Source of the DNA: Martinezella tropici
GTDB taxonomy: Bacteria > Pseudomonadota > Alphaproteobacteria > Rhizobiales > Rhizobiaceae
NCBI RefSeq assembly: GCF_003287875.1
Contig: NZ_QMKK01000022.1
Location: forward strand, 186,001 to 250,000
Reading direction: 5' to 3'
DNA: 64,000 bases
A model generated the notes under the pieces. It was not told where the DNA came from and made no database searches. It saw nothing but the letters and a program-made list of their open reading frames with translations. The position numbers and the translations under genes are program-made. The number at the start of each line of letters is the position of its first letter. The first letter of the stretch is position 1. Of the stretch, positions 18,199-46,819 are shown in pieces.

Positions 18199-18247
18199 TC
18201 GGCTTCAGGCAGCCCAGCTTTCTCGACCTGCAACCGAGGCTATCGCA

Positions 18248-18439
18248 ATGATGCACCGTACGCACAGTTCGCATCCGCATCTCAACCATTTCACGCCATT
18301 CCTCCCCTCCGGCTCGATGGCGGCACTCCGGGACCGGGACTTGCTGCACATGTCCGTGGACAGGCAGCGCCGCTTCGAATTGGCCCTTCTTGCCGTAATT
18401 GCCGTTTCACTCGGTGCTGCCATCGCGTGGATGCTCTGA
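18248..18439 (+). CDS. Small membrane protein, 63 aa
   Basis: Short product with a His-rich N terminus (MMHRTHSSHPHLNHF) and one C-terminal transmembrane helix (FELALLAVIAVSLGAAIAWM). GAGG lies eight bases upstream of ATG 18248. The gene is followed after two bases by another membrane-protein gene. Function unknown. Confidence 0.5.
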   Translation: MMHRTHSSHPHLNHFTPFLPSGSMAALRDRDLLHMSVDRQRRFELALLAVIAVSLGAAIAWML

Positions 18440-43634: not shown

Positions 43635-44249
43635 TCAGTAAAGCGGCTCCTCGTAGACGGATTTGCCGTCAAGAAGCAGGCTTCTGATATGGGCAACGCC
43701 ATCGGAAGACACGCGCGCCGCGATGGCGACCCGATTGTCATTGCGAGCGCTCTCGATATCGTGCCCCTGCCCCTCGGGCACATAGTAGCGCTCGATGCCA
43801 TAGGTGACCCCGATCACCGCCTGCGAGGGGTCGGTCGCATCGCCATGGAAAACATAATCGACGGGCAGGCTTTTGAGCACGACCGTATCGGGTTTCGCAT
43901 CGAGTGCTCCGAAGGATGATTCGACGATACCCCAGTAACCGTCGTCCTGCTTCTTCAGGCGAACGGACAATATAGCGGCGTTTCGGCTCATTTTCGGTGG
44001 TCCTTCGACCATCGTCGAAAACGGAACCCGTGAGATGTCGTAGTTCAAGGTCACGTAATCGCCGCGCAGAAGATCGCGCGGATCGACCGGCGCCGTCTTC
44101 AAGAGAATCTCGACACCGCTCCGCAGGCCCCAGGCCCGCTCGCCGACCATATAGCCCAGCACGGCGGTCTGCAGAGCCGCAACGACGATAGCGGCAATCC
44201 ACAGGCGGCGGGAGCCAATGGTCGGGCTCTTCTCGGCAATATCGGTCAT
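43635..44249 (-). CDS. GDYXXLXY domain membrane protein
   Basis: 204 residues. One N-terminal transmembrane helix (RLWIAAIVVAALQTAVLGYM) is followed by an extracytoplasmic domain with the signature GDYVTLNY (about 64-71) and a later VDYVFHGD. The family is known for pairing with DUF2157 proteins; the biochemical role is unknown. Start overlaps the DUF2157 stop by four bases (ATGA). Confidence 0.9.
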   Translation of the reverse strand: MTDIAEKSPTIGSRRLWIAAIVVAALQTAVLGYMVGERAWGLRSGVEILLKTAPVDPRDLLRGDYVTLNYDISRVPFSTMVEGPPKMSRNAAILSVRLKKQDDGYWGIVESSFGALDAKPDTVVLKSLPVDYVFHGDATDPSQAVIGVTYGIERYYVPEGQGHDIESARNDNRVAIAARVSSDGVAHIRSLLLDGKSVYEEPLY

Positions 44250-45385
44250 GCCCGCGTCCTCTGCCTGCCATTATCGGAAAAACGCCGTTCCAGCTGGATG
44301 ACCAGCCAGGCGGCAATGGCCACGAATATACCAGCCGCAAGGAAGAAGCCGGCTGTACCGATGATGGAGCCGATCGTCTCGCCGGCAAGATAGAGGATCT
44401 CGCAGGCAAAGACGAAATAGGCGAGATAGCGCACCGCACCATTGTCACGGCCGGCAAGGGCGATGGCGATCACCGAACTCGCCAGCGTCGCCGCGGCGAC
44501 GAAGACGAGCGGCAGCTTGTCTTCCACCCAGACGTTGTTTTCGAAGGATCCAGTGCCGATCTCGGCATGGACGAGGAAGAAGCCGATCGAGGCGATCAGA
44601 AAAGTATAGAAGGCCGGGGCCGCTCCAGCCGACCGCACAAGCGACATCAGCGGCGAAGCGGGAATGCTGACGAGAAGAAAGGCCGCCATCCCGAGCCCGG
44701 CAAAGAGGATCGCCGTGTTCAGGCTCTCATGCCGGGCGAAAAGCCAGGTGAACCATCCCACCAGCATGAGGTAGGCGAGATGCCGCGCACCCGGTGCGTC
44801 GACATAGCGAACGAGCGCAATCAGGATGACGCCCATCAGAGGCGGCATCCAAGGCATGATGCCATGCCACTGATCGAAATGATCCCATAGATAGACGCCG
44901 CAGAATGCCCAAGCGAGAAAACCGGCCAGCACGACTTGCGCGCTTAAACGAAACAGCGCCGCCACGATGCAGGCCGCAGCAAACCAGACGAGCATCATCG
45001 TCAGTTCGTCACCGGACAGATTGTACATCTGGCCGACAAGCGCCATGGCGCCGCCAAAACTCAGCGTCCCCAGGATCAAAAGTCCCGATGCGACAATCGA
45101 ACGACCAAGAGTAAGGAGATGCGCCGCGCCGAGATAGAAAGCCCATATCATCGCGACGAGCCCTACGAGGCGCGAGATCCTCGGAATCGCCTCCCAATTG
45201 GCGGAAATGAAAAGCAGTATCGCCAGGCCAAGAAGCACCGCGGCGATGATTGCCAGCACCCGCCCCGCACTGAAGCTCGTTTGGCGACCGTCATATTCAC
45301 GCAGCACCGCCTCTGCAGCACCTGCATCGACAAGACCTTTTTCGATCCAGATTTTCAGATCCCGTTCCAGCCTGCCCCTGTACAT
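44246..45385 (-). CDS. DUF2157 polytopic membrane protein
   Basis: 379 residues. N-terminal cytosolic DUF2157 segment (LKIWIEKGLVDAGAAEAVLR) and about ten transmembrane helices starting at VLAIIAAVLLGLAILLFISA with NWEAIPRISRL between the first two. Function unknown. Overlapping stop/start with the GDYXXLXY gene shows a two-gene operon. Confidence 0.88.
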   Translation of the reverse strand: MYRGRLERDLKIWIEKGLVDAGAAEAVLREYDGRQTSFSAGRVLAIIAAVLLGLAILLFISANWEAIPRISRLVGLVAMIWAFYLGAAHLLTLGRSIVASGLLILGTLSFGGAMALVGQMYNLSGDELTMMLVWFAAACIVAALFRLSAQVVLAGFLAWAFCGVYLWDHFDQWHGIMPWMPPLMGVILIALVRYVDAPGARHLAYLMLVGWFTWLFARHESLNTAILFAGLGMAAFLLVSIPASPLMSLVRSAGAAPAFYTFLIASIGFFLVHAEIGTGSFENNVWVEDKLPLVFVAAATLASSVIAIALAGRDNGAVRYLAYFVFACEILYLAGETIGSIIGTAGFFLAAGIFVAIAAWLVIQLERRFSDNGRQRTRA

Positions 45386-45690
45386 CCCGGCTCCCTAGCT
45401 GCGACTCCCCTTGCATAGGAGAAATACCACAATTCAGCCATCTATGCCGCCGGCGCCTTCCGCACAAATATGTCCCACATTAATACAGAATTAAGCGCTG
45501 ACCTTGCATGATATGGCCTGGTATTCAGATACCGGCACGAGACATGCGCATTCGGCATACCTCCTATGAAATTATTGCGCTGCACAAAATTAAAAAGTCA
45601 TACTATTTGTAGAACGCCGAAACACGGAGATGGCGCGCCGGGCCAATTCTGGTCGGAAAAGCCTGGGATTTACGTCCCGACACGGAATTC
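45386..45690. other. Intergenic region upstream of the small RNA
   Basis: No coding frame supported. AT-rich in the centre. TTGCGC at 45575-45580 and CATACT at 45599-45604 with 18-bp spacing are a possible sigma-70 promoter for the CCTCCTCCC-loop RNA that follows. Confidence 0.4.
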
Positions 45691-45809
45691 GGAGCCGCAC
45701 ACTCCTCCTCCCAGTGCGCTCCGATAGATTGACGACACTCCTCCTCCCAGTCGTCAATCACCTCAAATGACGCCCACCGCATCCTCCTCCCGCGGTGGGC
45801 GTTATTTTT
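45691..45809 (+). ncRNA. Three-hairpin anti-Shine-Dalgarno small RNA (cuckoo/CcsR type)
   Basis: Three stem-loops in a row each show CCTCCTCCC in the loop. Hairpin 1 (45691-45722): GGAG-C-CGCAC with GTGCGCTCC, one bulged C. Hairpin 2 (45727-45759): perfect 10-bp stem GATTGACGAC/GTCGTCAATC. Hairpin 3 (45770-45802): perfect 11-bp stem ACGCCCACCGC/GCGGTGGGCGT followed by TATTTTTC, which also serves as terminator. The spacer CACCTCAAAT occurs after hairpins 2 and 3. The loop is complementary to ribosome-binding sites; in Rhodobacter and rhizobia such RNAs respond to stress and lie next to DUF1127 genes, as here. Confidence 0.85.
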
Positions 45810-46224
45810 CTCACCTCAAATCGGCTCATATGCATCTGGTGCCGGAAGAACTGGCAAATGCCGGAACCTGACGTGGAAACAGTCGAGTGACGATTCGCGG
45901 GCGAAAGACAGCTCATGCAGCCCTCCCGATACGGCATGGCTGGCCAAAACATGGCCGAATGCGGGCAACAAATGGAAGCGCCAGCGAAAGCCGGGCGTTC
46001 CCTTGAAGCGAGCCTCTGAAGTAGTTCTTCATTCGGCCGCGATATGCACATAAAGCAGCCGCCATCTTAGGCAGATCGCCCACAAGGCTTGCATGTTATG
46101 CATAGGTGACATGAAGCATTCGCTCTTTTAGTTTTCGCGGCGCAGCATATATTTAAATCCATTAGATCGACGACGGAACCAATCGCGGAACCGCTCGATC
46201 ACAGATCCTCGAAAGGGACTTAAA
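45810..46224. other. Intergenic region between small RNA and DUF1127 gene
   Basis: 415 bases with no supported gene on either strand. Codon-like structure is absent, and a promoter for the DUF1127 gene must lie in its right part; no convincing -35/-10 pair was assigned. Confidence 0.4.
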
Positions 46225-46371
46225 ATGAACCTGACCCGCTCTTTCAACAACTGGCGCAAGTATCGTCAGACCGTCAACGAACTCGGCCGCATGAGCGCTC
46301 GTGAACTGCACGACCTCGGCATCGACCGCGCCGACATCCATCGCGTTGCCCGCGAAGCCACCGGCCGTTAA
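46225..46371 (+). CDS. DUF1127 small protein 1
   Basis: 48 residues: a basic N-terminal helix (NLTRSFNNWRKYRQTVNELG) followed by the DUF1127 core MSARELHDLGIDRADIHRVA. Arg-rich small proteins of this family bind RNA or regulate RNA turnover in alphaproteobacteria and are linked to CCUCCUCCC-motif RNAs. AAAGGGACT lies before the ATG. Confidence 0.92.
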   Translation: MNLTRSFNNWRKYRQTVNELGRMSARELHDLGIDRADIHRVAREATGR

Positions 46372-46409
46372 TCGCCGGATAGGCTTCGCCCAACAGCGAA
46401 AGCCTTCTC

Positions 46410-46448
46410 AACGCCCGTTGCGGACCTCCGCGGCGGGCGTTCTTTTTT
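46410..46448 (+). terminator. Terminator after DUF1127 gene 1
   Basis: Arms AACGCCCG (46410-46417) and CGGGCGTT (46434-46441) with inner GCGG/CCGC pairing, followed by CTTTTTT. Confidence 0.85.
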
Positions 46449-46675
46449 GCCCATCGACTGAGCAAGCGCAGCATAGCCGATCCGCCCCGAGCTATTCCTT
46501 ATCTGCAAAGCACCCAAATTTTGAGCATCGACTGCTTTTTGGGCGTCATATTGCACAAATGCATAGCAGACGCCTTTTCTTTGCACTGCACAACCGACCT
46601 CCTCGCGCCTATATAGAGTGCAAGCGCTGAGACGGTAATCGTACCGCTCGCAACCAAGATACCGAGGATAAGATC

Positions 46676-46819
46676 ATGAACCCGATTCGCATTGCAAAGA
46701 ACTGGATCAGCTACCGCCGTACCCTGAACGAACTTGGCAACCTCTCCAGCCAGACCCTTTCGGACATCGGCGTCAGCCGCTACGAGATCCGCAACATCGC
46801 TGCACGTTCCTTCCGTTAA
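46676..46819 (+). CDS. DUF1127 small protein 2
   Basis: 47 residues, a paralogue of the previous gene (NPIRIAKNWISYRRTLNELG then NLSSQTLSDIGVSRYEIRNI). GAGGATAAG precedes the ATG. A separate terminator shows that it is its own transcription unit. The N-terminal helix is less basic and the last residues differ. Confidence 0.92.
   Translation: MNPIRIAKNWISYRRTLNELGNLSSQTLSDIGVSRYEIRNIAARSFR

Follow-up and report, generated by a model that had tools for sequence, protein, structure and literature searches.

The window (the whole 64-kb stretch of DNA that was analysed) carries on its plus strand, at 45684..45807, a small RNA that is a member of the already modelled and published ar14 (αr14) family, which any Rfam scan can find. 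The Rfam ar14 covariance model (RF02344) matches this core over all of its 123 positions (1-123) with 113.9 bits, the cut-off being 58.8. We consider it very probable that this is a trans-acting anti-Shine-Dalgarno (anti-SD) sRNA with its own promoter and terminator, that it is a counterpart at the nfeR1 locus of S. meliloti and that the neighbouring, box-bearing DUF1127-1 gene is co-regulated with it. This reading draws directly on sequence, structure, covariation, family score, synteny and boxes, and extends by inference to a start site, expression, silencing and LsrB binding.

The family, its loops, its mechanism and its association with DUF1127 are already in print (PMC3927594, PMC10746234, PMC7143759, PMC10253847), and the window RNA is ordinary for its family. 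What is added here is the six-copy count, the genus-wide layout, covariation, synteny with nfeR1, a predicted leader and the distribution of a composite box, the useful part being the link to DUF1127 control. Anti-SD RNAs and DUF1127 proteins are neighbours in many alphaproteobacteria, for a reason that is not settled, and reports on DUF1127 proteins describe RNA binding in Rhodobacter and protein binding in Agrobacterium and Salmonella. That ar14 RNAs and the DUF1127 genes beside them share an LsrB/VtlR-type box would be a directly testable reason for this pairing, and the nfeR1 locus matters for nodulation. In the literature on NfeR1 and sRNAs, LsrB/VtlR and DUF1127 (subscription papers apart), we found no paper naming NfeR1 together with DUF1127.

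Three anti-SD hairpins of the ar14 family

The first-pass annotation had drawn three consecutive stem-loops with anti-SD loops at 45691-45809, and both the fold and the motif count bear out their coordinates, loops and stems. All three lie on the plus strand: (i) hairpin 1 (45689..45724), with CCTCCTCCC in its loop at 45704-45712 and a stem of 11 pairs between 45689-45700 and 45714-45724, in which one base is bulged, (ii) hairpin 2 (45727..45759), with CCTCCTCCC in its loop at 45740-45748 and a perfect stem of 10 pairs (45727-45736 with 45750-45759) and (iii) hairpin 3 with its U-run (45765..45809), which has the third anti-SD loop at 45783-45791 and a stem that folds into 16 pairs, including one G-U (45765-45780 with 45792-45807). 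The U-run directly follows the last stem and ends at 45809, and hairpin 3 probably doubles as an intrinsic terminator. CCTCCTCCC is unpaired in each of the three loops, so the RNA has the three hairpins with unpaired CCUCCUCCC by which ar14 RNAs are recognised.

Exactly three copies of CCTCCTCCC occur in the 64-kb window, all on the plus strand within 45704-45791, where 0.49 would be expected in the whole window; three copies were reached in one of 100 whole-window shuffles, even with no clustering demanded. The segment 45681-45829 folds at -59.9 kcal/mol (z -9.5), a stability equalled by none of 200 shuffles. A chance repeat as the origin of the three loops is ruled out by the motif count, the fold z and the covariation described below. 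As for the placement among CcsR/cuckoo RNAs that had been suggested from the letters, the general kind (an anti-SD RNA beside DUF1127) was right, but membership of CcsR1 is rejected (RF02791, 28.3 bits against a cut-off of 65.3) and ar14 takes its place. A thermodynamic matcher for the cuckoo RNA family was reportedly devised by Reinkensmeier and Giegerich in 2015.

Conservation at the orthologous locus

Of 24 same-genus relatives, 23 have the same order RNA, DUF1127, DUF1127, and these 23 and the window make up an ortholog set of 24 rows (G003 is the relative outside it). Among the 23, two have a copy that misses the ar14 cut-off (52.0 and 50.2 bits) and has the nonamer in a single loop. Across the set, CCTCCTCCC fills three loops in 10 rows, two in 12 and one in 2, the third loop reading CCTCCCC in the 12 rows with two nonamer loops. 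The view that the loop is what is conserved therefore holds within limits, in full for the 10 rows that keep all three and in part for the 14 others.

The stems vary in sequence and keep their pairing, with compensatory changes. Standard pairs fill 97.7% of the 696 cells, and both sides have changed at 10 of the 29 stem pairs, neither value being reached by any of 500 shuffles. The covariation score is 0.266; shuffles average 0.132, and sliding the structure (the consensus of the same 24 rows) along the alignment brings the score down to 0.026-0.074 and the paired share to 25-51%. The number of further pair types shows no excess (19 versus a shuffled mean of 19.2, with 350 of the 500 shuffles reaching 19). 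Covariation across rhizobial genomes had been proposed as a check, with loss of the loops and of compensatory stem changes in relatives as what would speak against a regulatory RNA: the loops are partly lost, and the compensatory changes are present nonetheless.

A place probably shared with nfeR1

In S. meliloti Ak57 (CP090106), the gene order is tig, tRNA, ar14a, ar14b, DUF1127, DUF1127, trmFO, with which the window locus is syntenic (tig on one side; DUF1127, DUF1127 and trmFO on the other). Ahead of ar14b, a TGCA-N6-GCAT starts 71 nt, and a TGC-N11-GCA spans 115 to 99 nt, before the core; for the NfeR1 promoter, an LsrB motif (TGCA-N6-GCAT, about -72 to -57) and an NtrC motif (TGC-N11-GCA, -116 to -101) are reported (PMC10746234). 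In Ak57, ar14b and the LysR gene that follows trxB are about 31 kb apart, close to the distance between NfeR1 and AbcR1 in Rm1021 that follows from the coordinate table of PMC7143759. Because promoter motifs and LysR-gene distance agree, we take ar14b of Ak57 to be nfeR1, and we infer that the window locus occupies the same chromosomal place. The Ak57 sequence itself (CP090106; our L165 and L166) is named pSymB and holds tig, trmFO, secDF, trxB and the LysR gene, and may be the chromosome under a wrong name. The gap between the end of tig and the first RNA measures about 730 nt in Ak57 and holds no GDYXXLXY or DUF2157 gene; in the window, two minus-strand genes of these kinds (GDYXXLXY and DUF2157, 43635-45385) lie between tig and the RNA.

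By its promoter, the window RNA seems most like ar14a, the tandem neighbour of nfeR1, with which it shares a layout of palindrome, then TTGCRCTGCACAAA, then -10; by position, the predicted start would lie about 70 nt before the core in the window RNA and about 90 nt before it in ar14a. Orthology with nfeR1 proper ranks behind the tandem neighbour on promoter layout, core identities to the window RNA (0.80 for copy a, 0.78 for copy b) being undecisive alone. Of the promoter motifs of NfeR1 proper, the window copy has TGCG-N6-GCAT instead of the LsrB motif TGCA-N6-GCAT, and the NtrC motif TGC-N11-GCA was not found in the 260 nt scanned before it. NfeR1-like promoters are found in the same genome at two other copies (L003 and L001), whose cores the box precedes by about 66 nt.

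Predicted promoter and leader of the window RNA

A predicted sigma-70-type promoter, CTGCAC-N17-CTATTT, lies on the plus strand at 45580..45608, in an alignment block that 22 rows of 24 keep and that has diverged in the other two, G022 and G015; its counterpart in copy a of S. meliloti Ak57 is CTGCAC-N17-CTATAT. It would place the transcription start near 45614. Upstream of it, at 45545..45558 (plus strand) and about -69 from that start, is a TGCG-N6-GCAT palindrome, which is like the LsrB motif TGCA-N6-GCAT and is without the TG of the full VtlR box. At the aligned site, TGCR-N6-NCAT is found in 21 of the 24 orthologous rows (missing in G007, G017 and G023) and the strict TGCR-N6-GCAT in 14. 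An NtrC-type TGC-N11-GCA was not found in the 260 nt scanned upstream of the RNA.

Judging from the conserved promoter, the RNA would begin with a 5' leader of some 70 nt (45614..45683, plus strand), with small stem-loops that lack the anti-SD motif. Almost all of the 24 sequences allow these stems to be drawn, the consensus fold supports six leader pairs only, and the fold z averages -0.75 over the 24 sequences (-0.1 for the window itself), which hints faintly at a structured leader.

The DUF1127 genes and their linkage to ar14 RNAs

The two short genes that had been called DUF1127 beside the RNA are indeed such, according to PF06568 (cut-off 23.3): DUF1127-1 (46225..46371, plus strand, 48 aa) scores 61.0 bits and DUF1127-2 (46676..46819, plus strand, 47 aa) 46.9 bits. 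Rhizobium miluonense has an identical DUF1127-1 protein. In the window, the DUF1127-1 gene lies 417 nt from the RNA on the same strand, RNA first. The feature by which a CIN1 locus is recognised, a short DUF1127 gene next to an anti-SD hairpin RNA, is thus present at the window locus. Read-through from the RNA into DUF1127-1 is disfavoured, since a terminator-like hairpin stands between them, and the poor conservation of the spacer up to the DUF1127 promoter (in the 18 of 24 rows compared) also counts against it.

The 3' UTR of DUF1127-1 (46367..46445, plus strand) has a hairpin followed by a terminator. In the window, this hairpin is without a TCCTCCC loop and gives an ar14 match of 20.7 bits, below the cut-off; among the 23 rows counted for DUF1127-1 (G017 left out), the TCCTCCC loop is present in 13 and the motif is missing in the other 10, the window included. 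One suggested reading is that the window hairpin is a lost or replaced anti-SD hairpin, and the 3' UTR hairpin hints at a common origin with the ccaF1-CcsR layout. Upstream of DUF1127-2, a motif scan shows TGCACAAATGCATAGCA at 46552..46568 (plus strand), which resembles the TTGCRCTGCACAAA element of the window RNA promoter; a TGCACA-N3-GCAT core precedes DUF1127-2 in 13 of 13 relatives whose gene start was found by pattern, and also in S. meliloti.

The genome from which the window comes (6.95 Mb, 61 contigs) has six ar14 copies over the cut-off and nine DUF1127 matches. In the 25 same-genus genomes (this one included), 48 out of 127 ar14 copies have a listed DUF1127 gene no more than 1.5 kb away, in all 48 cases on the same strand. 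The 127 copies are the same-genus matches over the cut-off (two in G039 and all weaker ones excluded) and the list of DUF1127 genes comprises 87 same-genus rows with E no worse than 1e-10 (other families and anything weaker excluded), so that adjacency may be undercounted; we estimate that, with some eight DUF1127 genes in 7 Mb, a copy would have one beside it by chance in well under 1% of cases. DUF1127 comes first at 26 of the 127 copies (its match 213-272 nt before the RNA) and the RNA first at 22 (DUF1127 392-472 nt downstream). The RNA-first order, rightly described as opposite to that in Rhodobacter, is therefore not odd in the genus but one of two recurrent Rhizobium arrangements.

A wider view comes from 80 named loci around the closest relatives of DUF1127-1, the best 80 of at least 318, which are related sequences rather than independent ones. 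At least two anti-SD hairpins stand upstream of the gene in 40 of these loci and only downstream in 20, one stands on each side in 3, and the other 17 show at most one, which is then downstream, as counted by a purpose-made hairpin counter that misses some first hairpins. A Rfam scan of 20 of the 80 found an ar14 match over the cut-off in 13, and none in L126, L131 and L139 (Sinorhizobium, Ensifer). Some copies have features of their own. In the same genome as the window, copy L006 (contig C26) has an extra CCTCCTCCC starting 17 nt before the ar14 core, which suggests a fourth hairpin, and an Rfam Atu_At1 RNA nearby. In other families of the order, DUF1127 genes and ar14-like hairpins alternate at L077 (G031), DUF1127 first and with ar14 matches below the cut-off, and one DUF1127 gene is followed by two ar14 RNAs at L079 (G039).

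LsrB/VtlR-type boxes

A motif scan places a composite LsrB/VtlR-type box, TGCA-N6-GCAT-N3-TG-N3-T, before DUF1127-1 at 46090..46112 (plus strand). The general pattern, TGCR-N6-GCAT-N3-TG-N3-T, is our own merger of two published motifs; it precedes DUF1127-1 in all 23 orthologous rows that were scanned (G017 not among them) and in 65 of the 80 named loci (again related sequences, the best 80 of at least 318). In the 6.95-Mb genome, it has 13 matches versus one for a reversed control pattern, of which four stand before ar14 copies and two before DUF1127 genes immediately beside ar14 copies. Another match, at 18242-18264 (minus strand), is inside overlapping ORFs of the window and is probably due to chance. 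In a 2.4-kb stretch of S. meliloti, the composite box occurs on the plus strand only before ar14b and DUF1127-1.

Five of the six ar14 copies (all but the window copy) have the shorter box GCAT-N3-TG-N3-T in their upstream 200 nt, compared with 2.3% of random 200-nt stretches from the window. Of the nine DUF1127 genes, two have it in the 250 nt before them, and both stand immediately beside ar14 copies. It was not found in the 250 nt before DUF1127-2 or the 200 nt scanned upstream of the window RNA, which carries only the palindromic part of the composite box. Elsewhere in the genome, a LysR gene comes after trxB, and downstream of it lie two ar15 RNAs, both preceded at 61 nt by the shorter box. 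This gene order points to lsrB/vtlR; no NCBIfam model scored above its cut-off for the LysR protein (among the best 25 of 55 shown).

For Brucella abortus the VtlR box GCAT-N3-TG-N3-T is reported to be confirmed. For Agrobacterium it has been proposed, and VtlR is said there to activate directly both abcR1 and atu1667, the latter being the orthologue of two Brucella small proteins (PMC7486931). In Brucella melitensis, VtlR is reported to control AbcR2 and three DUF1127 proteins (PMC12595884). VtlR/LsrB regulons are said to differ among species (PMC7486931), and the sources conflict for S. meliloti: PMC7486931 reports no LsrB effect on AbcR RNAs, whereas PMC10746234 cites an LsrB site at AbcR1.

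The shared box pattern makes it probable that the RNA and DUF1127-1 are co-regulated rather than co-transcribed. A broader proposal, to which we give slightly less than even credence, is that LsrB/VtlR drives a distributed module in Rhizobium, made of five of the six ar14 RNAs, both AbcR RNAs and the ar14-adjacent DUF1127 genes, all co-expressed from separate promoters and not from one transcript of the ccaF1-CcsR type. The window RNA and DUF1127-2, which are without the full box, would join such a module only weakly or via another factor.

Proposed action

The promoter at 45580-45608 would yield a transcript that starts near 45614, ends at the U-run near 45809 and is perhaps trimmed to the 123-nt core. 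Its three hairpins would present three equivalent CCUCCUCCC seeds in single-stranded form, each of which, like the anti-SD end of 16S rRNA, could pair with purine-rich ribosome-binding sites in mRNAs and thereby block translation of the targets. The adjacent DUF1127 gene would be expressed from its own promoter, with an LsrB/VtlR-type box like that of other ar14 copies, and would thus be co-regulated with the ar14 set without read-through from the window RNA.

That the window RNA acts as NfeR1 does, in trans and, as expected of an ar14 RNA, independently of Hfq, is argued by analogy. NfeR1, the founding ar14 RNA, is reported to pair through three redundant CCUCCUCCC seeds with translation start regions, to silence ntrBC and two transporter mRNAs and to be induced in glutamate minimal medium, by salt shock and in symbiosis (PMC10746234). 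The role of stress regulator that the first-pass annotation had given the window RNA would likewise come from this sibling copy, not from the window copy. The ORF directly upstream of ntrC, which we take to be ntrB, has AGGAGG, complementary to CCUCCU, 4 nt before its likely start; this is compatible with ntrB as a target but unspecific, as it is an ordinary strong ribosome-binding site.

Three other readings compete with this trans-acting anti-SD sRNA. The most serious, although unlikely in our view, is that the window copy is a little-used or silent paralogue and that NfeR1-like copies elsewhere in the genome do the work. It gains from the northern blots reported for S. meliloti, in which only one of six copies was reliably detected (PMC7143759), so that the copy resembling the window RNA may be silent there; from the lack, at the window copy, of the VtlR box found before the five others; and from the third loop being changed in 12 of 24 rows, with a single full nonamer in two more. 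The promoter block, kept in 22 of 24 rows, and the compensating stems argue instead for use under some condition.

Rather improbable is a protein sponge, in which the three loops would titrate an RNA-binding protein, perhaps DUF1127, instead of or besides mRNAs. The recurrent linkage to DUF1127 genes and the repeated, identical loops would suit it, as would the report that CcaF1, a DUF1127 protein of Rhodobacter, binds RNA and helps to mature CcsR RNAs (PMC10253847), but the three seeds of NfeR1 are reported to be redundant in silencing target mRNAs (PMC10746234), the DUF1127 proteins of Agrobacterium to act on PhoR by protein contact and Salmonella YjiS (also DUF1127) to show no RNA binding (PMC12501420). 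We reject, as having next to no likelihood, a short coding gene in which the ORF at 45630-45770 (46 aa), running through the RNA, would be the real product: a GGAG does stand directly before its ATG, but the orthologous leaders have gaps that are not multiples of three, the ATG is replaced by GTG, GTA or other triplets in some aligned rows and the stems of the overlapping hairpins covary as RNA.

Comparison with known systems

The closest relative is ar14/NfeR1/Smr14C2/SmelC397 of S. meliloti, which likewise has three hairpins with CCUCCUCCC loops and variable stems in a 123-nt core, several copies per genome and the neighbourhood tig / DUF1127, DUF1127, trmFO; unlike NfeR1, the window copy has neither the NtrC-type TGC-N11-GCA nor the full LsrB/VtlR box. 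SmelA075 and SmelA099, from the 2011 rhizobial RNA family models, are similar in having three or four CCUCCUCCC hairpins (PMC3927594), their four-hairpin form being closer to copies L005 and L006 of the same genome, with an extra CTCCTCCC before the core, than to the window copy. The CcsR1 system of Rhodobacter sphaeroides (the ccaF1-CcsR1-4 operon) also sets anti-SD hairpins beside a short DUF1127 gene on the same strand, but there DUF1127 is reported to come first and to be co-transcribed from an RpoHI/RpoHII promoter (PMC10253847), whereas in the window the RNA comes first and has a terminator-like hairpin of its own. Finally, the LsrB/VtlR regulon comprises AbcR1, VrsA and Atu1667 in Agrobacterium, and AbcR2 and three DUF1127 proteins in Brucella; the window RNA differs from its promoters in having the palindromic part only, and the likeness lies in the putative box that precedes DUF1127-1 and five of the six ar14 copies.
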